NCBI RefSeq assembly: GCF_900105735.1
Contig: NZ_LT629793.1
Coordinates: 2,542,001 to 2,606,000, forward strand
Length of the DNA: 64,000 nt
Direction of reading: 5' to 3'
DNA from: Pseudomonas yamanorum
Lineage (GTDB): Bacteria > Pseudomonadota > Gammaproteobacteria > Pseudomonadales > Pseudomonadaceae
Shown piece by piece: positions 20,864 to 37,283 of this stretch. The notes beneath the pieces are model-generated. The model did no database searches. It saw nothing but the letters and a program-made list of their open reading frames with translations, and was not told where the DNA came from. The translations under genes and the position numbers were made by a program. Position 1 is the first letter of the stretch, and the number at the start of each line of letters is the position of its first letter.

Positions 20864-21261
20864 GGGGCCGTTTAGGATTCGACGCCGGTTGCGAAACTTT
20901 AGGTGCATGCCGAGTTGGTAACAGAACTCGTAAATCCACTGTTGCAACTTCTTATAGTTGCCAATGACGAAACCTACGGCCAGGAATTCTCTCTCGCTGC
21001 GTAAGCAGCTTTAGATCCTGAGCTTCTGGTACCTTCGGGTCCAGCAATCACCAGGGGATGTCTGTAAACCCAAAGTGATTGTCATATAGAACAGAATCGC
21101 CGTGCAGTACGTTGTGGACGAATCGGCTAAAACTTACACAACTCGCCCAAAGCACCCTGCCCTTCGGGTCGCTGAGGGTTAACTTAATAGATACGGCTAA
21201 GCATGTAGTACCGACAGCGGAGTACTGGCGGACGGGGGTTCAAATCCCCCCGGCTCCACCA
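20864..21261 (+). ncRNA. ssrA: Transfer-messenger RNA
   Basis: tmRNA rescues stalled ribosomes with SmpB. The 5' end GGGGCCG (20864-20870) pairs with CGGCTCC before ACCA at the 3' end (21251-21261). A T-arm (GGGGG-TTCAAAT-CCCCC) is present. The tag reading frame starts at 20960 and ends at the TAA at 21002-21004, encoding ANDETYGQEFSLAA. The 3' end is the insertion site of the genomic island that follows. Confidence 0.97.
21239..21261 (+). repeat. attL: tmRNA 3' end used as integration site
   Basis: These 23 bases of the T-arm and acceptor stem recur imperfectly at 37246-37267 (19 matching columns of 23 with one gap). An integrase gene lies 190 bp downstream, the standard layout for tmRNA-targeting islands. 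Confidence 0.7.
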
Positions 21262-21272
21262 AATTATCATCT

Positions 21273-21294
21273 AAAGACGTCCACGGACGTCTTT
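21273..21294 (+). terminator. Terminator directly after ssrA, supplied by the island
   Basis: AAAGACGTCC pairs with GGACGTCTTT and is followed by TTTT. It lies 12 bp after the tmRNA end, so the island brings its own ssrA terminator; a different terminator-like hairpin lies past the right end. Confidence 0.85.
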
Positions 21295-21374
21295 TTTTGT
21301 GCCTGAAATCCAGTAAATACGGGGGTTTCAGGGCCACAGGAGGCTTTCCAGGCTTTGTGAATTCCAGGCAGTTT

Positions 21375-21424
21375 GGTATTCCCAATGGTATTCCCGGCTA
21401 CACGGCGCTAATCTTGGGAATACC
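21375..21424. repeat. Left integrase arm-site cluster
   Basis: GGTATTCC occurs at 21375-21382 and 21387-21394, and in inverted orientation at 21417-21424. The direct pair has a 12-bp period, the same as the pair near the right end. They are likely integrase N-domain binding sites; the role is inferred. Confidence 0.6.
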
Positions 21425-21448
21425 AAAAGGTGTCATGGAGTACTTCTC

Positions 21449-22705
21449 ATGTGCGCTCAAACCACCCGCCTCTCCGACCGCCAGCTCAAGGCGGTCAAAC
21501 CGAAAGACAAGGATTACGTCCTCACGGATGGCGACGGGCTCCAACTGCGAGTCAGGGTCAATCGCTCGATGCAGTGGAATTTCAACTACCGGCATCCCGT
21601 CACCAAAAATCGAATCAACATGGCACTCGGCTCTTATCCCGAGGTTTCTCTTGCGCAAGCGAGGAAGAAAACCGTTGAGGCAAGAGAGCTGCTTGCACAG
21701 GGCATCGACCCAAAAGCTCAGCGTAATGAGCTACAGGAAGCCAAACGAGCGGAAACGGAACACACCTTCGAGAACGTGGCCACTGCCTGGTTCGAGCTGA
21801 AGAAGGATTCCGTCACGCCGGCGTATGCCGAAGACATTTGGCGCTCCCTCACACTGCATGTTTTTCCGAGCATGAAATCAACGCCTCTCTCCGAAGTCAG
21901 CGCCCCAATGGTCATCAAGCTCCTTCGTCCGATTGAGGCCAAAGGCAGCCTCGAGACAGTTAAGCGAGTGAGCCAGCGCCTTAACGAGATAATGACCTAC
22001 GGGGTCAATTCCGGAATGATCTTTGCCAACCCTCTCAGCGGTATTCGAGCGGTGTTCAAGAAACCTAAGAAAGAGAACATGGCAGCTCTACCACCAGATG
22101 AGCTTCCGGAGCTCATGATGGAAATCGCGAACGCCAGCATTAAGCGGACGACCCGCTGCCTGATCGAATGGCAGCTACACACTATGACCCGCCCTGCCGA
22201 AGCGGCGACTACCCGATGGGCAGACATCGACTTCGAAAAACGCATCTGGGCCATCCCTCCGGAGCGAATGAAAAAGCGTCGTCCGCACACAATCCCGCTG
22301 ACCGAACATGCACTCTCGTTATTGAAGACGCTTAAGCCCCATAGCGGCCACAGGGAATATGTGTTCCCGTCAGATAGAAATCCGCGCACCCACGCGAATA
22401 GCCAGACAGCCAACATGGCATTGAAACGAATGGGCTTTCAGGACCGCTTAGTCAGCCACGGCATGCGCTCCATGGCCAGCACAATTCTGAATGAGCATGG
22501 ATGGGATCCGGAGCTAATCGAAGTCGCGCTGGCGCATGTCGATAAAGACGAAGTTCGAAGCGCCTACAACCGGGCGGATTACATCGAACGCCGGCGTCCG
22601 ATGATGGCCTGGTGGAGTGAACATATCCAGAAGGCAGCCACCGGCAGCCTGTCGGCATCCGCCATCAATCAAAACAGGGACCGTAACGTCGTGCCGATAC
22701 GCTGA
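21449..22705 (+). CDS. P4-type tyrosine recombinase (island integrase)
   Basis: The 418-residue product has an N-terminal arm-DNA-binding DUF4102-like domain (LSDRQLKAVKPKDKDYVLTDGDGLQLRV), a central core-binding domain, and a C-terminal catalytic domain. Active-site residues can be read: Arg in MTRPAEA, the HxxR box in SHGMRSMA, His in ALAHVDKDE and the Tyr nucleophile in RSAYNRA. It excises and inserts the island at ssrA. It lies 190 bp from attL and reads away from it. The ATG at 21449 follows a weak ribosome site. Confidence 0.93.
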   Translation: MCAQTTRLSDRQLKAVKPKDKDYVLTDGDGLQLRVRVNRSMQWNFNYRHPVTKNRINMALGSYPEVSLAQARKKTVEARELLAQGIDPKAQRNELQEAKRAETEHTFENVATAWFELKKDSVTPAYAEDIWRSLTLHVFPSMKSTPLSEVSAPMVIKLLRPIEAKGSLETVKRVSQRLNEIMTYGVNSGMIFANPLSGIRAVFKKPKKENMAALPPDELPELMMEIANASIKRTTRCLIEWQLHTMTRPAEAATTRWADIDFEKRIWAIPPERMKKRRPHTIPLTEHALSLLKTLKPHSGHREYVFPSDRNPRTHANSQTANMALKRMGFQDRLVSHGMRSMASTILNEHGWDPELIEVALAHVDKDEVRSAYNRADYIERRRPMMAWWSEHIQKAATGSLSASAINQNRDRNVVPIR

Positions 22706-24098: not shown

Positions 24099-24435
24099 TT
24101 TTCTGTTCCTGATCGGCTGCTGCGAGATCATGCAAAAGGGCTCGCCAGTGCGCACTTACAATCGCGAACTGAGCCCAATCAGTCGGGCGAAAACACAGCG
24201 TGTTGGCGGTGACGTAAAGATGCGCGCCCTGCTCTTCCAACCATTGGATAATGGAGGTCGTCGATGTGATAGTTCTATGGAGGGTGGCGACACCGGCGAC
24301 ACCGGCGACAACCCTTGCCTTGCCTGCCTTTGAGCGTGGCGACAAAGTGGCGACAGTACCTGCGACAAATCGCACTTTCGGCTCCTTTTGGCGTTGAGCC
24401 AGATGGTTGCGCAGCGCTTCATCAAGATTGAACAT
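24082..24435 (-). CDS. Hypothetical 117-residue protein of the DUF3987/recombinase module
   Basis: GAGGTG precedes the ATG, which lies inside the end of the DUF3987 gene (14-bp overlap). Its 3' end overlaps the recombinase start by 17 bp. The protein contains a low-complexity stretch (VATLSP...VVAGVAGVATL) encoded by tandem GGCGACACC repeats at about 24285-24320. The C-terminal half has a predicted helical region with LRxPTDW-like residues. Its function is unknown; it may be a DNA-binding partner. Confidence 0.65.
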   Translation of the reverse strand: MFNLDEALRNHLAQRQKEPKVRFVAGTVATLSPRSKAGKARVVAGVAGVATLHRTITSTTSIIQWLEEQGAHLYVTANTLCFRPTDWAQFAIVSAHWRALLHDLAAADQEQKNGSGR

Positions 24436-25828
24436 GGCGCACCTCGAAGGTGTGGCCGTCGGAGATCAACCACTGATGATCAATCAACTCGACCAGCAGC
24501 TTTGCGGCATGACTACTGCTCTTGCGGGCAAAGCGGGGACCGTTGCGATTCAGATCTCGAATACTGAAGCGCTTCCAATCCTTGACCTGCAGCCAGCGCA
24601 ACAGCCGGTCCGCCTCTTCTTTTACCCTGCACACCGGCTCCTGCTCGGTCAGGCGCTGGATCTCGGAGAGGTAGTAGCCAACTAAGGCCGAGGCCCGCTG
24701 GATATGGTCGACCTCCACGACACTGCTCTCCTCCACAACGGCCAAAATGCCGGCGACGCGCAAAAGGTTGTCGGCGGCCTTCGAACCGCTGGGCCGCACG
24801 CTGGCCAGCTCGCCAAACTCACCCAGTTGAGCTTCGATAGCATCATGCAAATCAATCCAGCGACGACGCGCGAGCGGACTGAGGCTCAGCTTTGACAGTT
24901 GCAAGGCTCCGTCAGCGGAAAGTGACCAAGGCTGATAAAACAGAGCCGAAAGGCGGTGATGATAGCGCTTGAGGACAGCGTCTTTGGACAAGTCGACAGC
25001 CTGGTAGCTACGTTGCCCGGCTAGACTGGTGGGCCAGGTCATCAAGCAGCGCCCTAGAACGCCCTGCCCCTGCAGCAACGGGTCACTGAGTAACTGCATG
25101 GCCAAATACGGTTGCAGCATCAGGTGCAGGCTCAAGCGTCGGTCATAGGCTCGCAAGCTTTCACCAACCATGGAACGCGCGCGATCTATCGGGCTGCCAT
25201 CCCAGAGTGACGACAAGGTCGTGACCGCTTTCAAACGGTTATCCCGACTCATGGTGCTGCTGCCGAGGAATTGTCCACCTTCATCACAGAACAGACCCAT
25301 GCTAGGCAGGTCATGACAGAGCCCCTTGATCAGGGCCTCGATAGTCGGGTCCGTGGTGATCAGTCTAGGGGCTGAGGGCTCCGCTTCGAGCGACATTCCG
25401 TTTGCGGGCTCAGGATCGCCAGGCTTGATACGCTGCGCGTGTCGCTGTGCGGCACGGTACCGGGCAAGTTGTTCGCGATAGCGCTGCCACTGTTCACGCT
25501 CCCATTGCCGTGCCGGCAGCAATGCACATCGGTCTGCGGCGGTCTTGCGATCACCTGACGCGGCCACCGTGATCAGGTACAGCGACAGGGGATAATTTCT
25601 CCCGTCGAGCTGTAAGCCCGCATGACCTTGAGTGGCCAGCGCCGAGGCACCCAACACTGATTGCGCGGCCAGTGCCTGGGCCACGCCGATGACCTCGGCC
25701 ATTCGCTCTACCGCAGGCCCAAGAATCCCACCCAGTGCCTGCACCGGATAAGGCTGGGCCACGGGATTCGACTCAATCAGCGGTCGAGGTGGTTGCGGTA
25801 GTTCAAGCTTCGGATCTAACTGCTGCAT
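24422..25828 (-). CDS. DUF3987 (YfjI-like) protein, primase/helicase-associated
   Basis: The 468-residue product resembles DUF3987 proteins of integrative elements. A degenerate P-loop (ITVAASGDRKTAAD, residues 86-99) and an acidic motif FCDEGGQFLG (DEGG 182-185) support a P-loop ATPase core. A Gln/Arg-rich insertion lies at 103-135, and the C-terminus looks like a winged helix (SSHAAKLLVELIDHQWLI). GAGGAGAGGG precedes the ATG. It is first in a four-gene overlapping operon with a recombinase. It could serve in replication or phage interference; the role is not established. Confidence 0.8.
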   Translation of the reverse strand: MQQLDPKLELPQPPRPLIESNPVAQPYPVQALGGILGPAVERMAEVIGVAQALAAQSVLGASALATQGHAGLQLDGRNYPLSLYLITVAASGDRKTAADRCALLPARQWEREQWQRYREQLARYRAAQRHAQRIKPGDPEPANGMSLEAEPSAPRLITTDPTIEALIKGLCHDLPSMGLFCDEGGQFLGSSTMSRDNRLKAVTTLSSLWDGSPIDRARSMVGESLRAYDRRLSLHLMLQPYLAMQLLSDPLLQGQGVLGRCLMTWPTSLAGQRSYQAVDLSKDAVLKRYHHRLSALFYQPWSLSADGALQLSKLSLSPLARRRWIDLHDAIEAQLGEFGELASVRPSGSKAADNLLRVAGILAVVEESSVVEVDHIQRASALVGYYLSEIQRLTEQEPVCRVKEEADRLLRWLQVKDWKRFSIRDLNRNGPRFARKSSSHAAKLLVELIDHQWLISDGHTFEVRHVQS

Positions 25829-26895: not shown

Positions 26896-27432
26896 TCAGG
26901 CATCAAAGCGGGTTGATTGAGAAGTGACGGCCTCACGTCGCATGATCAGCGTCTGCTGCAACCGAAGCAAAAAACCTGCTTCAAATGCTTCTTGGGGATC
27001 ACCTGGACGATGATGCTTTCGGTTTTGCGCCAGTGCCCACCACAGCGGCAATGATGAGCCATCGAGCCAGGTCTCAGCGCACCGGACGCCGTCTTCAATC
27101 ATCGGGCGGAATTCATTTCCCCATGGTGTTCGAAGACCAGGACAGCCTTCAGCTGAAGGGACAGAGACGTACTCACCAACCTGTTGATGAACGCGCTGCG
27201 CTGGGATACCGGACAAACATCGAAACGCCTTGTCGAACAACACAGCCGCGTCGTCCAATAGCTCTACCGCCAGCTCAACATCCTGTGGAAAATGAAGCAG
27301 GACGCTCTGTGCTCCATTAAGCCGAAGTATTGCAGCCTGCCGTAGTTTAATCGCTGCATCTTCAGGGGTAAGCGATGAAGTATCGATGCTGTTAGGTTTG
27401 GGGAGGCCAATGAGAAGCGAAAGATCAAACAT
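26896..27432 (-). CDS. Hypothetical 178-residue protein
   Basis: GGAGG lies 8 bp before the ATG at 27432, supporting translation. The predicted protein is soluble and mostly helical (LTPEDAAIKLRQAAILRLNGAQSVLLHFPQDVELAVELLDDAAVLFDKAFRCL ...). Its composition is neither basic nor membrane-like, and I recognise no family. It is a single gene flanked by hairpin-rich spacers inside the island. Confidence 0.65.
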   Translation of the reverse strand: MFDLSLLIGLPKPNSIDTSSLTPEDAAIKLRQAAILRLNGAQSVLLHFPQDVELAVELLDDAAVLFDKAFRCLSGIPAQRVHQQVGEYVSVPSAEGCPGLRTPWGNEFRPMIEDGVRCAETWLDGSSLPLWWALAQNRKHHRPGDPQEAFEAGFLLRLQQTLIMRREAVTSQSTRFDA

Positions 27433-28658: not shown

Positions 28659-29354
28659 ATGGACAGAAACAAATACCTCCTCCTAGAATTGGCCAATCTT
28701 GAAGTAGACTCAAAAATCGGAAAAGATAGACACTTTATCGCTGCAGATCGTAAAAACATCAGAAGAATAGCACTTGGTCTTTTTTCAGTAATAGGGACAG
28801 CCATTATTGCATCCAAAGCCATAAAAGACGTATTTCAAGCTATCACACCAATTTCTGGCTATGAAGCCTTATTTATTTCAACCATTTCATTATTAGTAGG
28901 CGTATCCACGGCAATACTTGGTTTTTTAGGTCTTGAAAAACAAGTATCACAGCACAGGCTGGTGGGAAACATGTACATTGAAGTGTCTCGAAAAGCAAGA
29001 CGCCTAATAAATCGGCTTCATGAAGGAGAAGACGCAGACATTATAAAAAGCGAGTTTCAAACTATACTAACCGAATACCTGAGCATAAACAAAGAGGGCG
29101 AATCGTGTCCTACCTCCAAGAAAGACTCGATCAAGTCACTTGCCCAAAATAGCTCTTCTAGGGGAAAAATCAAAAGCGAGATAAAAAAACAGGATGATCA
29201 AGCGATGCAGTTGACATCACCACCTAAAATACACTCTCTAAAAAAGCTTGTAAGCAACGGTTTGAAAATTCGCGCAGCAGAGTTTTTTTGTTATGTGAAA
29301 TTAATTAGCATTTCAAATCGTGACATTTACATAGAAACAGTTGCAAAAAAATAA
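28659..29354 (+). CDS. SLATT-like two-transmembrane-helix protein
   Basis: The 231-residue product has the SLATT layout: a charged N-terminal helix (KDRHFIAADRKNIRR), two membrane helices (about residues 36-54 and 70-91) separated by a short loop, then a conserved amphipathic stretch (EKQVSQHRLVGNMYIEVSRKARRLINRL) and a soluble tail. SLATT proteins are predicted pore-forming effectors that accompany nucleotide-signal or NAD-sensing defence genes. Here the neighbour, convergent across a shared terminator, is an operon with a GGDEF nucleotidyl-cyclase domain. The family assignment is by pattern and moderately sure. Confidence 0.65.
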   Translation: MDRNKYLLLELANLEVDSKIGKDRHFIAADRKNIRRIALGLFSVIGTAIIASKAIKDVFQAITPISGYEALFISTISLLVGVSTAILGFLGLEKQVSQHRLVGNMYIEVSRKARRLINRLHEGEDADIIKSEFQTILTEYLSINKEGESCPTSKKDSIKSLAQNSSSRGKIKSEIKKQDDQAMQLTSPPKIHSLKKLVSNGLKIRAAEFFCYVKLISISNRDIYIETVAKK

Positions 29355-29370: not shown

Positions 29371-29398
29371 AGCTCCCGCAATAAGCATTACGGGAGCT
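29371..29398. terminator. Shared terminator of the SLATT-like gene and the five-gene operon
   Basis: AGCTCCCG (29371-29378) pairs with CGGGAGCT (29391-29398). On the minus strand the stem is followed by TTTTACTTTT, so it ends the methylase operon; it can also stop the plus-strand gene. Confidence 0.75.
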
Positions 29399-29419: not shown

Positions 29420-31180
29420 TTAATTTTTAATCAAAATCGCATACTCTCTTACAGCTTTCGACTTATGCTTTCCTTGTCCCTTATATGAGTGCCCCATGCC
29501 AAACACATCTATCTTCCTTCCCCCAGTAGATATACGATCAAGAATATTTTCAACTGACGCGACTCCAACACTTGAGTAGCTCCATAGGCAAGACCAACCT
29601 TTACTCAAGGACGTCTCGATAATATCAACAATTAAATCCTCGATCAGCCTAGTGTTTCTAGTCGCAAATGATGATGCAAACCTACCAGCATCACCTCTCT
29701 TAGGCATTGATGCCTTGTCCTGAACAACAGGATAGTCATATCTTACTAGCGTTTCTAAGATGTGATAATAACGACTATATTCATCACGCGTATAAGGTGG
29801 ATCTAGGTAGACACAGACTGATTTACCGGCAAGATCATTTTCAGCTTCTTTAACGGCATTCTCCCAAGGACCAGGGACCGACTTTACTCCGTAACGAGTT
29901 TTAGAGCTTTCCTCCCCCAAACTTGTAAGCCGCACAAAAAACTCGTGCGAAATCGATAACCCTCTACATACGACTAAATCAGACGCAAGCAAGCTCAAGC
30001 GCGCCTCGTCAACACCATCAAATTTAGGTTGCGCAAAATGACCGCCATATGAATATGCACACGAACTAGTGGCACACAATAGTGCACCTAAAGCCCATGA
30101 ACGCTCCTCCTCATCCTCGAGCTGATCAATAGCGTAACGTAAACTATCAATTTCAGCTGACTGCCTGACTCCAAAGAAGAGATTCGCATAATACGTGCTG
30201 AACAAAAGGTATGGAGCAGTGTGATTATCAATCTGCCGTTCAGCCACCAAATCAGAAATGGTCTGCGCCGTTTCTATTTTAGAATTATTGATCCTAGCGT
30301 ATTCAGAAATCCATTTATACAACTGACTTTTAACTGAAGGAGACAATTCGGAAGCTAAAAAGTCATTCTCAATATCTATATTAGCCTTGACGTAATCAGG
30401 AAGGCTCTCATAATGAGAGCGAGCCAATACTAAAACTTCATCGGCTACCTTCAGTGCTCGCTGAGCATCGAAGCCTCCCCCTTGCACTTTTGCAAGTAAT
30501 CTCGAAAACTCCTGCGCATCGGACGCGAGAGTAACCCACTCACGACTAAAATATCCCGACGCTGCCCCTGACCCACACATTAGATCAATGACTACCGTGT
30601 CTGAAGCAAGAAGGGTGTGCATAATTTCGGAAAGATATGGAGCAAAAAAAGCTTTGGATCCCATGTAATGTGCAGAACGAGAAAATTGGGTCGTTCTAGA
30701 GTTAAGCAAAGATGATGTTCTTTTCTTAGCGCTACGCACTCGCTCCAGCAAAGAAGGAAATCGACTATTTATATCATAAGCCCCGAGCAACACTTGCCCC
30801 CAAACCTCAACATCCTTATTTCCAGTATAGGATTTTTGTTCCGATTGAATCCAGTAAGGTAGAAGTTGGAGTAATATTTCTTCTCCCTCTGTATCTCCAT
30901 CAGTCTGCGCAAGACCGTCACTAATTACAGTCCCTTCTCCTAACAAGAGCTCCTCCGCGCTAGGAAATAAGGAACTTGGGTGAGGATTAATATAAGGATT
31001 AAGCTCAGCCTGTAGCGCTAGCGCCTCTACACGATCAAACTGAGCAGAAGAGCAAATAAAATTATCTCTAGCTTCTATTTTCGCCAATACCGACCTGGAA
31101 AACCATGTACCAGATTTTCCAGTATGCTCATCAATCACTTTGACAAGTGGCCGTCGCTCGGAGGTATCTCGCTTGCTCAT
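29420..31180 (-). CDS. Large D12-class DNA adenine methylase with N-terminal extension
   Basis: The 586-residue product is much longer than ordinary Dam-type enzymes (about 270-300). About 165 extra N-terminal residues precede the D12 core: YMGSK (172-176), SAM motif I VIDLMCGSGA (197-206) and catalytic motif DPPY (460-463) followed by TRDEYSRYYHILETL. N6-adenine methylation is therefore plausible. The insertion between motif I and DPPY is large and helical and may carry target recognition. Its ATG overlaps the upstream stop (ATGA). It is the last gene of the operon, ending at a terminator shared with the SLATT-like gene. Confidence 0.85.
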   Translation of the reverse strand: MSKRDTSERRPLVKVIDEHTGKSGTWFSRSVLAKIEARDNFICSSAQFDRVEALALQAELNPYINPHPSSLFPSAEELLLGEGTVISDGLAQTDGDTEGEEILLQLLPYWIQSEQKSYTGNKDVEVWGQVLLGAYDINSRFPSLLERVRSAKKRTSSLLNSRTTQFSRSAHYMGSKAFFAPYLSEIMHTLLASDTVVIDLMCGSGAASGYFSREWVTLASDAQEFSRLLAKVQGGGFDAQRALKVADEVLVLARSHYESLPDYVKANIDIENDFLASELSPSVKSQLYKWISEYARINNSKIETAQTISDLVAERQIDNHTAPYLLFSTYYANLFFGVRQSAEIDSLRYAIDQLEDEEERSWALGALLCATSSCAYSYGGHFAQPKFDGVDEARLSLLASDLVVCRGLSISHEFFVRLTSLGEESSKTRYGVKSVPGPWENAVKEAENDLAGKSVCVYLDPPYTRDEYSRYYHILETLVRYDYPVVQDKASMPKRGDAGRFASSFATRNTRLIEDLIVDIIETSLSKGWSCLWSYSSVGVASVENILDRISTGGRKIDVFGMGHSYKGQGKHKSKAVREYAILIKN

Positions 31181-31932
31181 TCCTCACCAACCTTTCGTAC
31201 GTACATCATATCTCCAAACACCGAAGGAGAAGTTATAATCTCAGCATTCGGATAGACTGATAGCAACTCCGAAAACCATATAACCCCCTGGGATTTATGG
31301 AAGTTGGCCGCCCATATACCGCCCACTCGTATACGGTCGAAAACCTTAGCTATTATCTCTGCACTCACTGATCTGTAATGCAGCACATAGCAACACACCA
31401 CTAAATCAAAGCACTCAAGTTGAAGCGCATCCAATTGCTGTTCATTTAATACCTCCAGACCTATCGCACTTGCATAGTCGCGATTTTCTTGAACAAAATC
31501 AAACCCAAGAAGATTATCAAGATTCCGGTATACAGCACTAGCGAGTACTGTCCCCGGTCCGCAGCCAAAATCAAGTACGTTCTTAATAGGAAATGCGCAT
31601 AGTTTACGAGCCCCTTCATAAAGAGATTCGTAACAGCCGACATTTATTCCCTTATCAATGGTCGCATTATATGTATCACCAGCAATTTCAAAAAACAATA
31701 AATGGATCACTTCTTGGCGATGCGCACTTTGTAAGCGTTGAACTACAAAACAGGATTCAAAAATCCTATTATACCCTCTTACCTCCAACTCCAAAAATTG
31801 CTCACGTGTAATATCGCCAATGCATTTCCATAGCGAAAAATTGGCGCTATGATTAACGACTTTAAAGTCCATTGTGAGTAAGGAAGCATTTGGGGGATCA
31901 TCATGCTTATAACCAACAATAAACGTCGCCAT
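31177..31932 (-). CDS. Class I SAM-dependent methyltransferase
   Basis: The 251-residue product has a Rossmann methyltransferase core: motif I VLDFGCGPGTVL (119-130), an acidic residue after strand 2 (LLGFDFVQENRDYA), and motif IV (CFDLVVCCYVLHY). About 110 residues precede the core. The substrate is unknown; it has no DPPY, so it is not an amino-type DNA methylase. Its start shares one base with the stop of the GGDEF gene (TGATG) and its stop overlaps the next start (ATGA), showing strict translational coupling. Confidence 0.8.
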   Translation of the reverse strand: MATFIVGYKHDDPPNASLLTMDFKVVNHSANFSLWKCIGDITREQFLELEVRGYNRIFESCFVVQRLQSAHRQEVIHLLFFEIAGDTYNATIDKGINVGCYESLYEGARKLCAFPIKNVLDFGCGPGTVLASAVYRNLDNLLGFDFVQENRDYASAIGLEVLNEQQLDALQLECFDLVVCCYVLHYRSVSAEIIAKVFDRIRVGGIWAANFHKSQGVIWFSELLSVYPNAEIITSPSVFGDMMYVRKVGEE

Positions 31933-34463
31933 CAGTCGCTAGCCATATCTACAATTTGTTTAGCAACCCGCGTATGAAACTCGTCGCTCCCGATGTGCAA
32001 GCTCAGAGCAACGTAATTCAACTCTCCAAGCTTGACTGTGTCTACCCCTAAACCTGCAGTCTCTGCAACTTTTTGAGTTAACTGTTCAGCCAACTGTATT
32101 GAACCATACAAACTGTAAGGCAGCCCAATAAACGCTTCGACTGTACGCCAAACGAATACAAAATCGAGCACAACGGAGTTAGACAAGAATCTGGGAGTTG
32201 ACCAAATTGATATCAAACCAAGAGGGCGAGGTTCTCCCTTATCGTCTGGAACATGAGGAACGACCAAACATGCTCTACGAGTTGAGCGTGGCGCGTGAAC
32301 TTGCCGCACATACTTAGCCAAGTACTTACAATAAGCTAAAACCTGAGAATCCTTATCCAACTCTTTTCTTATCACTCCGCCTTCTAACAAAAGGACAGAA
32401 CTAGCGTACTCGTTCAAATTTTGCTTTTGACGAACAAGGTAGTCTGGGACCTTATCTTCTGAAGGATTAGTCAACTTTAACTTAAATGCTATTAGCTCTC
32501 TTTGCTCCTGCCCAGAATCATCTGTCGCCAACCGGACATCATTAGTCTTACGCAGGGTATCTACAATAAGCGGATACGCGACTCTCGCAGTGGTGCAAAC
32601 GATTCCCTCACTCTGTTCTAAAGGCACTGCTTTTACCATAGGGCGCTGTAACGAAGGTTCTTCGCCCCGGGCATCACTAGCGATAGTTACTGTACTTCCA
32701 TAAAAAGCCTGATAGGAAGTATAAAGACTTTCAAGAAACTCCTCATCGTTCTTTACCACTAAAACATTTTCGTGGAGACGCGTGGCTAGATCCTGAACCA
32801 CATTAGTAGTAAGGCCAGTAAGGCTAGCGATTTCGTCATTTGTCCATGACTCGGGATCCGTCAACCGTTTATAAATCTCGGTAGTTTCGACATCTTCGCC
32901 CCATATAATAATTTTTGAAGGTTTATTAGCTTTATCCAGTGCAGAAACGACCTGTGCCAGCGCCGCCTGCCAAAAATCGGGAAGCCCGCCACCCGTTTTA
33001 GGCCTAACGTCTACACGAACATGATCGATCAGAAAATCTTCCGGTAGTTTTCTGCCGCCGGGAGTTCTCGGAATCTGATCGAAGCCTATTTGAACCCCTA
33101 CGGCTATACCTTCGAATTTATTTAATTCACCGTTAGAAACTAAATTACCAAAATTCAAAGAACCGTCTACCTCTGCTTCAACTCCTCCCCAAATCGGTGC
33201 CCCATTGAATATGACCTCGCACAACCCAGAACTATCACTCCAGTTGAGCGCCAGTGTGTCATCTGAGACGTCAGACCAAGAATATTTAACAGCGGCTTGA
33301 GATAAGGCATGCAAAATAGCGACTGTAACTGCGCCTTGCGAAATTTCTGACGCAGGACCGGATCGTGTGAGCAGCGAAAGCTCGTCACATTCTTTAGTAA
33401 GATTTGCACCAAACCATGTCAAAACCGCAGAAACAGCATCATTAACTTTAGCCGGATCAGGTGGATTATCCGAGAGAAGGCTAACCTCTTTTACTATTAG
33501 ATTTAGGCGCTCGTCTGCGAAGCAGTTTTCAATCTTATTTCGACTTTTCGAAAGACACAACCCTAACTTCAGATAGTTACTCAACTTTGCTTGATAACTG
33601 TATTCATCATCAATGGCCGGCTGTCTTCTTTCAAAATTTATTGTACCGCGTCGCTTTTTCTTTTGAACAGTTCCATCTTTAGTAAGTTCTTCGCAGATGT
33701 CTTTTATTGAAGAAAGGTCACGAGTTATTTCATCCAAGCTTCTAGTAACAACCCCTGCGGTCATACCTATGCGAAAATCCTTAGCTCCGAAGCTAAACTC
33801 TGCAACACGATTCTTAAGCTCCCAAAGCCGGGAACTTACATCCATTGCCTGATCGCAAGGTAAAACCAACAAAAACTCATCACCCCCATCAATTAATGCT
33901 AGCCCACCTAAGTCTTTACACAGCTTATGCATCTCTCCATAAACGAGCCTGATCGCTTTATTGCCTTCGCTATGGCTTGATTGGTCATTCACATTTTTAA
34001 AATTATCTAAATCTATGTAAATTACGGAAAACTCAACAACTCCATGAAGAATAGACATTGGCAAGAGTGATTCCAATAGCATTTCTTCTGCATCGGATGC
34101 TTGCATGTTGAGTGCACCATGCTTCCGATATTCCCGCCCCCATACATCAACAAGCGCCGTTATGAGGTGATGAAGCTGTTGTTGAACACTGAGTTCGGTA
34201 GCCTGTGCAGAATCACCGACGTAAAGGGCGAGATCCGTTCCGACTCCATCTAGGCTATGTCTGATGGCAGGACTACCAGTGCATAGTCCCCACTCATATT
34301 CGACATCTAGGACTTTAACCTGCAAACCGATTTTATCTATTCCCAAATGACTTCCTAACGCTTCCAGCCGTTTCTCTAAATCATAAGGCGATATAAAAAA
34401 AGACTGAGCATCACTTCTCAATTTGAGTATCGGATCCTTTGCTGCGCGCATTTTACTAATCAT
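31932..34463 (-). CDS. GGDEF nucleotidyl-cyclase domain fused to a thymidylate-synthase-like domain
   Basis: This 843-residue protein has at least three parts. Residues about 140-240 are a GGDEF-type domain with the metal-binding strand YIDLDNFKNVND (Asp151) and an intact GGDEF (193-197), so cyclic dinucleotide or related synthesis is possible. Residues 280-600 are unassigned. Residues about 625-830 resemble thymidylate synthase: TRRACLVVPHVP, GLPYSLYGSIQL (780-791) and ALSLHI (819-824). At the place of the TS nucleophile (PCT in TS) the sequence reads EPRPL (744-748), so normal TS catalysis is not expected. It is coupled to the HAD gene (ATGA) and the methyltransferase gene (TGATG). The GGDEF call is firm; the TS-like call is moderate. 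Confidence 0.75.
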   Translation of the reverse strand: MISKMRAAKDPILKLRSDAQSFFISPYDLEKRLEALGSHLGIDKIGLQVKVLDVEYEWGLCTGSPAIRHSLDGVGTDLALYVGDSAQATELSVQQQLHHLITALVDVWGREYRKHGALNMQASDAEEMLLESLLPMSILHGVVEFSVIYIDLDNFKNVNDQSSHSEGNKAIRLVYGEMHKLCKDLGGLALIDGGDEFLLVLPCDQAMDVSSRLWELKNRVAEFSFGAKDFRIGMTAGVVTRSLDEITRDLSSIKDICEELTKDGTVQKKKRRGTINFERRQPAIDDEYSYQAKLSNYLKLGLCLSKSRNKIENCFADERLNLIVKEVSLLSDNPPDPAKVNDAVSAVLTWFGANLTKECDELSLLTRSGPASEISQGAVTVAILHALSQAAVKYSWSDVSDDTLALNWSDSSGLCEVIFNGAPIWGGVEAEVDGSLNFGNLVSNGELNKFEGIAVGVQIGFDQIPRTPGGRKLPEDFLIDHVRVDVRPKTGGGLPDFWQAALAQVVSALDKANKPSKIIIWGEDVETTEIYKRLTDPESWTNDEIASLTGLTTNVVQDLATRLHENVLVVKNDEEFLESLYTSYQAFYGSTVTIASDARGEEPSLQRPMVKAVPLEQSEGIVCTTARVAYPLIVDTLRKTNDVRLATDDSGQEQRELIAFKLKLTNPSEDKVPDYLVRQKQNLNEYASSVLLLEGGVIRKELDKDSQVLAYCKYLAKYVRQVHAPRSTRRACLVVPHVPDDKGEPRPLGLISIWSTPRFLSNSVVLDFVFVWRTVEAFIGLPYSLYGSIQLAEQLTQKVAETAGLGVDTVKLGELNYVALSLHIGSDEFHTRVAKQIVDMASD

Positions 34464-35434
34464 GCCTTCCGTGTCCTTCCGAATAATCGTTGGGCGCGCC
34501 GAACAATTTCGAGCACCTCAATTGCGGCGTTACCTGCACCTTGATTAGAGTAAAACTTACTTGATGCCCTTGCTGCATCAGATGAGTTTTTCACACTTAC
34601 ACTTATTCCTGCCCATGATAATAGCTCAACATCATTGTCGTTATCGCCAACCGCGAGTACATTTTCGGGCAGAATGCGATATCTATCGCAGAGAACTTTT
34701 AATCCAATTGCCTTGGAAGATTTTTCCGGCCGAATTTCTACATATGTAGATCCACTTGCAGTGACCGAAATCCCTGACACGCTGGACAACGCGTTGACTA
34801 GCGCTATTTTCTGCTCGCTCAACGTGGCGCTCATCAATGCCGCAACCACTTTGTCACTAGCAAGATTCATATCCGAAAAAAGCTTTACTGGCATGCCATT
34901 GAAGTCCCTTTCTGGCTTGCTCTGAGGCGCCCCTACATAAAAAACACTTTCAATAGATGAAAGATCATTTATCAGCTTTGCCTCAGGGTCTACCGTATAT
35001 ATAAATAACGAAACGCTAGACAGGCCTTGTACTATTTTCAATATTTGAACAATAGAACACTCTGATATCTTTGTATGAGTGACCAAACTTTCGCTTTCCG
35101 GCTCAATAACAACGCTACCATTATATAAAACTAACGGAACTCGATTAAACCCTCCTAGCTGCTTAACTGTTGGAGACACGCCGGTAAGAGTTCTGCCTGT
35201 AGCGAGAGTCAATCGAACATTTCTACTCGGACCGCTCAGCAACCCAAACAAATGGATGAGGCGTTCGCCCAAGACTTCGCGCGGGCTAGATATAAGCGTT
35301 CCATCCAGATCAAAGGCTATGAGTTTTACCCGAGCAAACGGAAGTAGCTCCTGAGGGTTACAAAGAGCGTCGGGTAGGCAGCGAGGATCACTTGTTAATG
35401 ATGAAGACATGATGCATTTGCTGCCTTGTGCCAT
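34460..35434 (-). CDS. Cof-type HAD-superfamily phosphatase
   Basis: The 324-residue product has HAD motif I IAFDLDGTL (42-46 DLDGT), the Cof-type ATGRT (78-82), a capping domain, and motif IV AVGDNDNDVELL (263-268). Such enzymes hydrolyse sugar phosphates or nucleotides such as FMN and PLP. In this operon a nucleotide substrate is plausible but inferred. Start choice is open: the ATG at 35434 overlaps the upstream methylase by 47 bp, and a second ATG at 35410 overlaps by 23 bp; neither has a strong ribosome site. The stop overlaps the next start as ATGA. Confidence 0.85.
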   Translation of the reverse strand: MAQGSKCIMSSSLTSDPRCLPDALCNPQELLPFARVKLIAFDLDGTLISSPREVLGERLIHLFGLLSGPSRNVRLTLATGRTLTGVSPTVKQLGGFNRVPLVLYNGSVVIEPESESLVTHTKISECSIVQILKIVQGLSSVSLFIYTVDPEAKLINDLSSIESVFYVGAPQSKPERDFNGMPVKLFSDMNLASDKVVAALMSATLSEQKIALVNALSSVSGISVTASGSTYVEIRPEKSSKAIGLKVLCDRYRILPENVLAVGDNDNDVELLSWAGISVSVKNSSDAARASSKFYSNQGAGNAAIEVLEIVRRAQRLFGRTRKA

Positions 35435-36392
35435 TAGTCGACTGATATCCTAAAGCAGGAATTTCATGTACCTTGAGAGTACCCTGCGTGACCAGAGCTC
35501 GCTCTAACTCATTTAGGCAAATATGAGCTCCATCTGCGTATTGCACCACCAAGCGTTCCCAACTAACGGAGTTAATAAGATCCAAGAGATAAGGCAACCT
35601 CATTGCATTTCTTATTTGGCTGCCCATTGTCGAACGTACAACAGGCTGTCCACATTTGCTATTTGAATCAACTGAAACCTCTTCGAACTTAGCCAGAGTT
35701 TCAGGAAGATGATAATATCTAGAATAATCTCGTCCATTATAGGGAGGATCAAGATAAAGGACCTCGAACGCCTTATCACTTAGATAATTAAGGGCATCAC
35801 CTCTTACCGCTACCCCTCTAGGCCCTTCGACAAATCCCAGATACCATTCAAAACTGAATGTTTTCAATGCCTTCCTGTCCCAATTTTTCAAGTAGGCATA
35901 ATAGGTGCCCGCCGTATTCGCAACAGCATCCATACTATTCAACAAGGAAGCGATCAGAAACTTTTCTTCATCAACATCAATAAGCTCAAGAGTTTTCCAA
36001 GACTTAATCTCTAACCAAACAGCGCTTATTTTTGCTGCATTCTCGGTCGTAAAAAAACCACGTACTTCTGCGTACTCTTTTACAAACCAACTCTCATCAG
36101 AACAAAGAGAATTCAGATGAATTAACAAACCCTCTTGCGAACTCACGCTTAGAAACTTCCTAACTCTGCTGAAGTTCGGCAGAGCATCACAAACTAATCT
36201 TACGTGCTGAAATGCATTGGGGAAATGCAGCAAATCGCAGGCTGTGACTAAACACCCTCTTTTTTTGAATTCAGCGCCGATATTACCGAGCCCCCCGAAT
36301 GCATCCGCAACGGTGGCATTTTTATAGCCATCTAAAGCTATATCAGCAACAACCGGCGCCGTTGAGGCCTTAGACCCGAAATATCTAAACAT
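35388..36392 (-). CDS. D12-class DNA adenine methylase
   Basis: The 334-residue product begins almost directly with the D12 core: YFGSK (4-8), motif I VADAFGGLGNIGAEF (28-42) and DPPY (215-218) followed by NGRDYSRYYHLPETL. This last segment is closely similar to the larger methylase in the same operon, so the two are paralogous in their catalytic motif. It is the first gene of the five-gene operon. No restriction endonuclease gene is visible, so either an endonuclease is unrecognised or methylation serves another purpose. Confidence 0.87.
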   Translation of the reverse strand: MFRYFGSKASTAPVVADIALDGYKNATVADAFGGLGNIGAEFKKRGCLVTACDLLHFPNAFQHVRLVCDALPNFSRVRKFLSVSSQEGLLIHLNSLCSDESWFVKEYAEVRGFFTTENAAKISAVWLEIKSWKTLELIDVDEEKFLIASLLNSMDAVANTAGTYYAYLKNWDRKALKTFSFEWYLGFVEGPRGVAVRGDALNYLSDKAFEVLYLDPPYNGRDYSRYYHLPETLAKFEEVSVDSNSKCGQPVVRSTMGSQIRNAMRLPYLLDLINSVSWERLVVQYADGAHICLNELERALVTQGTLKVHEIPALGYQSTNGTRQQMHHVFIINK

Positions 36393-37245: not shown

Positions 37246-37267
37246 TTCAGATTACCCCGGCCCACCA
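37246..37267 (+). repeat. attR: degenerate copy of tmRNA 3' end
   Basis: TTCAGATTACCCCGGCCCACCA aligns with the tmRNA terminus at 19 columns. A second CACCACCA at 37277-37284 directly abuts the next hairpin, so the exact junction lies between 37246 and 37284. Confidence 0.6.
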
Positions 37268-37283
37268 TATACGAAGCACCACC

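Follow-up and report, generated by a model that had tools for sequence, protein, structure and literature searches.

Cyclic oligonucleotide-based antiphage signalling systems (CBASS), Panoptes, the Hypr GGDEF enzymes, enzymes of the thymidylate synthase (TS) fold and restriction-modification (R-M) systems with two methylases are the described systems with which the locus reported here was compared. The locus is a cassette of five genes in a 64,000-nucleotide stretch of the Pseudomonas yamanorum genome (contig NZ_LT629793.1, positions 2,542,001 to 2,606,000), referred to below as the window. It encodes two D12-class DNA methylases (D12a and D12b), a haloacid dehalogenase (HAD) phosphatase, a protein joining a GGDEF domain to a TS-fold domain (GGDEF-TS) and a small S-adenosylmethionine (SAM)-dependent methyltransferase. 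The five-gene unit is conserved and its active-site motifs are intact, effector genes of the CapV or SLATT family adjoin it at 8 of the 15 places where it was found, and no cGAS/DncV-like nucleotidyltransferase (CD-NTase) gene stands near it in the effector-linked genomes. Because of these features, together with the GGDEF base-choice residue and a patchy distribution, we think it rather probable that the cassette is a nucleotide-signalling immune system, probably antiviral, in which a CBASS-like alarm is built from a GGDEF synthase, DNA methylases and exchangeable effectors.

The cassette resembles CBASS of the phospholipase (CapV) type in having the same effector family directly in the operon at 5 of 15 places, a nucleotide cyclase beside the effector, and a patchy distribution. 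It differs in its synthase, for which a GGDEF protein takes the place of the CD-NTase, and in its obligate partners, namely the two DNA methylases, the HAD phosphatase and an additional methyltransferase. Judged by its predicted synthase the cassette is not a CBASS, and it would be CBASS-like in its working if the proposal above holds. Panoptes (mCpol OptS with S-2TMbeta OptE), as presented in the available text of PMC12657218, likewise has a GGDEF/Cas10-related palm-type polymerase/cyclase, sometimes with a two-transmembrane (2TM) membrane protein. According to the same text the GGDEF motif is nearly absent in OptS, whereas here it is intact, the place of the 2TM protein is taken by SLATT_4 or CapV, and a TS-fold domain and methylases are added; the synthase is thus no minimal mCpol lacking the motif but a protein of 843 amino acids (aa) with a TS-fold domain. 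The Hypr GGDEF enzymes (GacA and relatives) share a Ser/Thr base-choice residue and a GDE[F] motif with four clostridial, CapV-linked copies of the cassette. In contrast, they are without a TS-fold fusion or defence neighbours as described in PMC6456294, and the copy in the window has Asn at this position. The TS-fold enzymes AfhB (9iqu) and MilA differ from the domain found here, which lacks a conserved Cys where TS enzymes have their nucleophile and is fused to a GGDEF domain. Two-methylase R-M systems, which have asymmetric sites, resemble the cassette in pairing different D12 methylases in one operon; unlike them, it contains no recognised restriction enzyme. The signature genes of BREX (bacteriophage exclusion) and DISARM (defence island system associated with restriction-modification), such as PglZ and the helicase, had no PADLOC match in the five proteins or the window neighbours scanned. 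The sequence-only reading of this DNA named no known system with this set of genes, and neither PADLOC-DB 2023 nor NCBIfam 2026 gave a matching multi-gene defence system. A description of the set was not found in the full-text literature searched, and a mention beyond it, for example in the survey of Burroughs et al. 2015, is possible.

The five-gene unit and its conservation

The genes of the cassette, with the candidate effector gene beside it, are as follows.

35388..36392, minus strand: D12a, an adenine DNA methylase of the D12 class encoded by the first gene, 334 aa (PF02086, E 4e-11; PADLOC MTase_II PDLC03287, 4.1e-39; DPPY motif intact)
34460..35434, minus strand: HAD-IIB (Cof-type) phosphatase, 324 aa (PF08282, 7.7e-37; catalytic residues kept)
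31932..34463, minus strand: GGDEF-TS protein, 843 aa (GGDEF by Pfam; TS fold by structure comparison)
31177..31932, minus strand: SAM-dependent methyltransferase of the Methyltransf_25 type, 251 aa (PF13649, 7.9e-7)
29420..31180, minus strand: D12b, the other D12-class methylase, 586 aa, extended at the N terminus by about 165 residues (PF02086, 1.8e-8)
28659..29354, plus strand: SLATT_4 2TM protein, 231 aa, candidate effector, convergent with the operon (NCBIfam NF033632, E 2e-25, above cut-off; PADLOC 2TM effector, 2e-9)

The successive open reading frames (ORFs) of the operon overlap by 47, 4, 1 and 4 bases, and the block is rich in AT, with a G+C of 0.42-0.46 where the host has about 0.60. 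The sequence-only reading had described both features correctly, and its inventory of five genes stands; it had overlooked the adjoining SLATT_4 gene, as well as the effectors found elsewhere.

A database search with the 843-aa protein gave 43 matches, 38 of them in the same family (P0001-P0038). Thirty-six GGDEF-TS proteins of this family were aligned (alignment A1), and the alignment was used as query for species genomes, which yielded 13 loci, 12 of them in the family, and for viral contigs, which yielded a single family member (L025). The window, a Bradyrhizobium plasmid, the species-genome loci and L025 make up 15 distinct places, L023 and L112 being joined as one genome. Recurrence of the partners beside homologues of the 843-aa protein had been proposed as the deciding check on the earlier claim, which survived it: the five recur in order at the 15 places, and at 12 (the window, L012-L021 and L025) the order D12a, HAD, GGDEF-TS, methyltransferase, D12b is complete on one strand. 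These 12 include L015, in which 1130 bp separate the first two genes, L019, in which the last gene is cut at the contig end, and L020, in which the last two genes are fused as one ORF. The other three are broken or cut. In the plasmid copy L011 an IS1380 transposase (L011:12157-13494) lies between the HAD and GGDEF genes and D12b is split, L022 is fragmented with the HAD gene seen only in part, and L112/L023 retains genes one to three, GGDEF-TS being interrupted by a stop codon, then a remaining piece followed by unrelated genes. Four phyla carry the cassette (Pseudomonadota, Bacteroidota, Lentisphaerota and Bacillota), and within A1 the identity to the GGDEF-TS protein of the window falls to 23%. 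The longest contigs of 14 of 35 GGDEF-TS clusters are exactly as long as that of one of the best 120 of 398 D12b clusters, which is an independent sign of linkage; nine pairs of clusters have longest contigs 1 to 25 bases apart, among the same 120 of 398.

The cassette is rare and patchy, occurring in 2 of 398 Pseudomonas species genomes. The 397 genomes in the family of G428 gave a single match, G428 itself, as did the 399 genomes in the family of G421 when searched with D12b (G421 itself), and the E. coli set had no near match. A search of 57 related genomes gave 56 matches to the 843-aa protein; among those listed, every one except that of the window itself covers the GGDEF part only, and they were therefore taken to be ordinary GGDEF proteins. 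Of the best 80 of 161 viral loci, 79 match only the GGDEF part or its surroundings by their listed ranges, and L025 alone is full-length; L024, a GGDEF-only match, was rejected. No full-length GGDEF-TS match was found in 50,697 phage records, a further search giving six GGDEF-only records, and 72,556 plasmid records held one, the Bradyrhizobium plasmid. A clostridial query against plasmids matched 1577 records, and the 20 listed are all GGDEF-only apart from the same Bradyrhizobium plasmid. The L025 copy seems to be carried on a prophage, since holin-like and VanY-type endolysin-like genes (L025:11864-12891, minus strand) adjoin it. Related small proteins, possibly regulators, are encoded just upstream of D12a at L014:7705-8073 and L016:7682-8077 (both plus strand), the latter with a sub-threshold helix-turn-helix match.

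Effector genes beside the cassette

An all-against-all comparison of the cassette flanks revealed two families of recurrent neighbours. At 5 of the 15 places a CapV-family patatin-like phospholipase gene lies directly upstream of D12a on the same strand, with gaps of 12, 26, -4, 11 and -4 bp in L019, L020, L021, L022 and L112. All five phospholipases score 241-273 bits against NCBIfam NF041079, "CBASS cGAMP-activated phospholipase" (cGAMP, cyclic GMP-AMP; cut-off 200), the four scanned with PADLOC match its phospholipase effectors at 1.6e-87 or better, and among solved structures CapV (8zr9, 2.6e-39) comes closest to the L021 protein. The genomes concerned contain 2, 6, 2, 2 and 3 patatins in total. 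A SLATT_4 gene, of the class that PADLOC treats as a CBASS 2TM effector, lies within 65 bp of the cassette at three places: in L017 it is upstream with a gap of 48 bp, and in L012 and the window it is downstream in convergent orientation, 65 bases separating its end from that of the operon in the window. Each of these three genomes has a single copy of SLATT_4. The proposal that the five genes form an anti-phage signalling system, put forward in the sequence-only reading, gains partial support from these CapV-family and SLATT genes, which point to a role in immune signalling.

No SMODS CD-NTase (PF18144) was found near the cassette in any of the eight effector-linked genomes, and in four of them (G429, G430, G424 and G419) the search detected no such gene at all. 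The genome of the window (7.09 Mb in a single contig) has a separate SMODS gene about 0.9 Mb away (G000:C1:3471019-3471504).

Pfam and PADLOC scans of chosen neighbours at the places with neither effector gave no clear substitute. An alpha/beta-hydrolase-like gene with hydrophobic stretches (L014:15211-16467, minus strand), which faces the cassette end to end like SLATT in Pseudomonas, had all its Pfam matches under cut-off and no PADLOC match, and was not counted. A metallo-beta-lactamase-fold gene (L016:15206-16564, minus strand) matched PADLOC LmuA at 1.1e-12, but it has an apparent signal peptide and an SH3 domain and was likewise left uncounted. In L012 a 440-aa protein without Pfam or PADLOC match is encoded beside SLATT (L012:15996-17318, minus strand).

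The GGDEF-TS protein, its partner enzymes and the island

The 843-aa protein consists of an N-terminal region, a GGDEF domain at about residues 110-280, a middle region, and a C-terminal TS-fold domain at about 616-843. The catalytic Asp and Glu residues and the guanine-binding Asn of GGDEF enzymes are present: D151, D153, N159 and G194-D195-E196 are found in all 36 rows of A1, the GGDEF motif being full in 24 of them. None of the eight most frequent sequence variants listed has an RxxD inhibitory motif before the GGDEF motif. In two relatives, P0172 and P0193, the GGDEF domain also matches the second palm domain of Cas10/Cmr2 (PF22335) at 9.5e-6, just under the cut-off, and 8.1e-7, above it.

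The residue by which GGDEF enzymes select the second base is here residue 168, equated with PleD Asp344 and GacA Ser347/348 by our own counting from N159. It is Ser or Thr at four of the five CapV-linked places (L019, L021, L022 and L112) and Asp or Asn at all nine non-CapV places aligned. The window has Asn, and L011, as read by eye, has Asp. The canonical Asp occupies this position in 30 of the 36 rows of A1. Another 40 clusters came from a second database search that used distant members, and the tally at this residue in 92 aligned rows, some of them duplicates, is 40 Asp, 9 Asn, 25 Ser, 9 Thr, 8 Gly and one gap. In the available text of PMC6456294, Ser at the base-choice residue is the mark of the Hypr (cGAMP) GGDEFs, the substitution S348D converts GacA to a diguanylate cyclase, and natural Ser/Thr enzymes have GGDE[F/Y]. 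Four of five CapV-linked cyclases therefore have the predicted mark of cGAMP synthesis beside an effector family named for cGAMP, and the pairing is a coherent prediction of cGAMP as product, not an independent statistical proof.

The C-terminal domain has a TS fold by structure comparison, its nearest solved relatives being the phage deoxycytidine monophosphate (dCMP) hydroxylase AfhB (9iqu) and the cytidine monophosphate (CMP) hydroxymethylase MilA. Its sequence profile matched no TS in the PDB, and comparison with the profile of host thyA was weak (probability 2.4%, 56 columns). The site of the TS nucleophile was placed by sequence anchors and this weak alignment. No Cys corresponding to the catalytic one (PCH motif) occurs at residues 746-758 in any of the 36 rows of A1; in the wider set, scattered and non-conserved Cys residues appear at 754-755 in a few rows. 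The domain retains nucleotide-site residues.

The partner enzymes also keep their motifs. The DPPY motif of D12a (D215, P216, P217, Y218) is invariant in 14 of 14 aligned rows, and D12b keeps D-x-P-Y, with DAPY in five more distant rows. The model of D12b (predicted local distance difference test 87.2, predicted template modelling score 0.89) has a methyltransferase fold, and the assignment of DNA as its substrate rests on the D12 sequence family, because the solved chains nearest to the model include RNA and small-molecule enzymes. Two predicted D12 enzymes would supply the DNA methylase component of a type II R-M system and, since they are unlike each other, suggest an asymmetric target site. 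Distant D12b relatives are found alongside restriction enzymes: on an E. coli plasmid a pair of D12 genes adjoins a LlaJI-family enzyme, and another relative lies next to a BglII/BstYI-type enzyme. The HAD residues D42, D44, T79, K241, D264 and D268 are invariant in 14 of 14 rows, as is the GCGxG motif of the small methyltransferase (G123, C124, G125, G127) in 13 of 13.

The remaining features of the window that bear on the setting of the cassette are these.

20864-21261, plus strand: transfer-messenger RNA (tmRNA), in the context region 20864..22705
21449-22705, plus strand: integrase adjoining the tmRNA, in the same context region
29371..29398, no strand: 8-bp inverted repeat (AGCTCCCG / CGGGAGCT), found by eye between the convergent SLATT and D12b stop codons, possibly a two-way terminator

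The tmRNA and integrase, to the left of the cassette, are likely the insertion site of the island that the sequence-only reading described as tmRNA-inserted; no right-hand attachment repeat in the window rises above chance. A degenerate match to the end of the tmRNA, at 37246-37270, scored 25 and was rejected because shuffled sequences score up to 28 (60 shuffles), and the attachment-repeat search found no exact words of at least 15 bases at 21600-45000. The same island region encodes a 178-aa protein with a QslA domain (LasR antiactivator; 26896-27432, minus strand; PF18226, E 1.3e-10). A 468-aa DUF3987 protein, of a family frequent on mobile elements, is encoded at 24422-25828 on the minus strand (PF13148, 1.3e-73).

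Proposed mechanism and alternatives

In the immune system that we infer, the paired D12 methylases would methylate both strands of a short site in host DNA and so provide a mark of self, with D12b, or just its N-terminal part, as a possible inspector of DNA. Infection, through unmethylated DNA, a changed nucleotide pool or both, would switch on the GGDEF-TS protein, control being exerted by nucleotide binding to the TS-fold domain. The sequence-only reading had proposed that signal synthesis is triggered by a modified or altered state of nucleotides, and this may still be the trigger, because the TS-fold domain retains nucleotide-site residues. The GGDEF domain would then make a cyclic dinucleotide, for which our guess is 3',3'-cGAMP in the clostridial CapV-linked form and some guanine-containing dinucleotide in the Pseudomonas form. 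This signal would open the effector, a CapV phospholipase or a SLATT pore, so that the infected cell dies or stops. The HAD phosphatase might clear either the signal or the nucleotide that set it off, and modification of the signal or of a partner might be the task of the small methyltransferase.

Several observations weigh against this proposal. Neither effector is seen at 7 of the 15 places (L011, L013, L014, L015, L016, L018 and L025), where effectors either lie elsewhere or escaped recognition, or else the cassette works alone. The CapV-linked copy L020 has Asp at residue 168, and the link between Ser/Thr and CapV is not independent evidence because the four Ser/Thr places form one clostridial branch. 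Similarly, the SLATT genes of the window and L012 count as one event, since the two have further flanking island DNA in common. CapV and SLATT labels mapped on the tree each require two changes, and shuffled labels equal this result in 196 and 194 of 500 cases, respectively; exchange of effectors between lineages is therefore only suggested, and a single origin is compatible with the tree. The four effector-linked genomes without any SMODS match may lack one through incompleteness, some of them being incomplete metagenome-assembled genomes. Finally, if the Pseudomonas enzyme made plain cyclic di-GMP (c-di-GMP), cross-talk with the GGDEF proteins of the host would be a difficulty.

The proposal can be extended, tentatively and with clear doubt on our part, to a separate class of immune signalling that wires a DNA mark to a cyclic-dinucleotide alarm. 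The paired D12 methylases would both mark and inspect DNA, and the TS-fold domain would be a receptor reading a mononucleotide, either a pyrimidine or a modified one, that the phage makes or that is freed by breakdown of marked host DNA, upon which the cyclase fused to it would make the cyclic dinucleotide. The small methyltransferase may tag this dinucleotide and keep it apart from housekeeping c-di-GMP, while the HAD phosphatase would reset the system. Effectors (CapV, SLATT and others) would be swapped between lineages, the GGDEF base-choice residue changing to suit a cGAMP-activated CapV.

Alternatively, the cassette might be a modification system without a killing signal, in which the D12 enzymes mark DNA, the GGDEF-TS protein, phosphatase and methyltransferase either make, salvage or edit a nucleotide that serves an unusual modification of DNA or deplete a nucleotide, and the effectors are neighbours in a defence island. 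Base-modification pathways include enzymes of the TS-fold, HAD and methyltransferase types, the folds closest to the TS part act on dCMP or CMP (9iqu, MilA), and seven places have no recognised effector, among them the Herbaspirillum copy (L013), which is flanked by riboflavin synthase and a TetR-like gene and has no further notable neighbour. However, the GGDEF catalytic residues are invariant, there is no conserved Cys where TS enzymes need one, and the CapV genes overlap or abut the first gene, which would be rare for loose island neighbours, so that we regard this account as unlikely. Still less probable, in our estimation, is an R-M or BREX-like barrier in which the methylases protect self, another part directly blocks unmethylated DNA, and GGDEF-TS is structural or regulatory. 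Such a barrier would fit the restriction enzymes found beside distant D12b relatives, but no nuclease, helicase or PglZ family was matched in the five proteins (Pfam, PADLOC, NCBIfam), of which the D12b N-terminal part and the GGDEF-TS middle region were barely covered by fold comparison; the GGDEF active site is intact, and nucleotide-signalling effectors adjoin. That ordinary c-di-GMP signalling genes were grouped on an island by chance would agree with the recognition of the domain as a diguanylate cyclase and with the canonical Asp in most rows of A1. We hold this to be very improbable because the five-gene order is kept over four phyla, and the TS-fold fusion, the CapV and SLATT neighbours, and the missing RxxD motif in the variants listed also speak against it.

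If the cassette is indeed a nucleotide-signalling immune system, GGDEF enzymes, known as makers of c-di-GMP, would double as synthases of an immune alarm for CBASS-type effectors, and the TS fold would represent a novel type of sensor in immunity. DNA methylation and second-messenger signalling, two principles of immunity that are otherwise separate, would be joined in one operon. The clostridial version makes a sharp prediction, namely that a GGDEF enzyme would make cGAMP for CapV.

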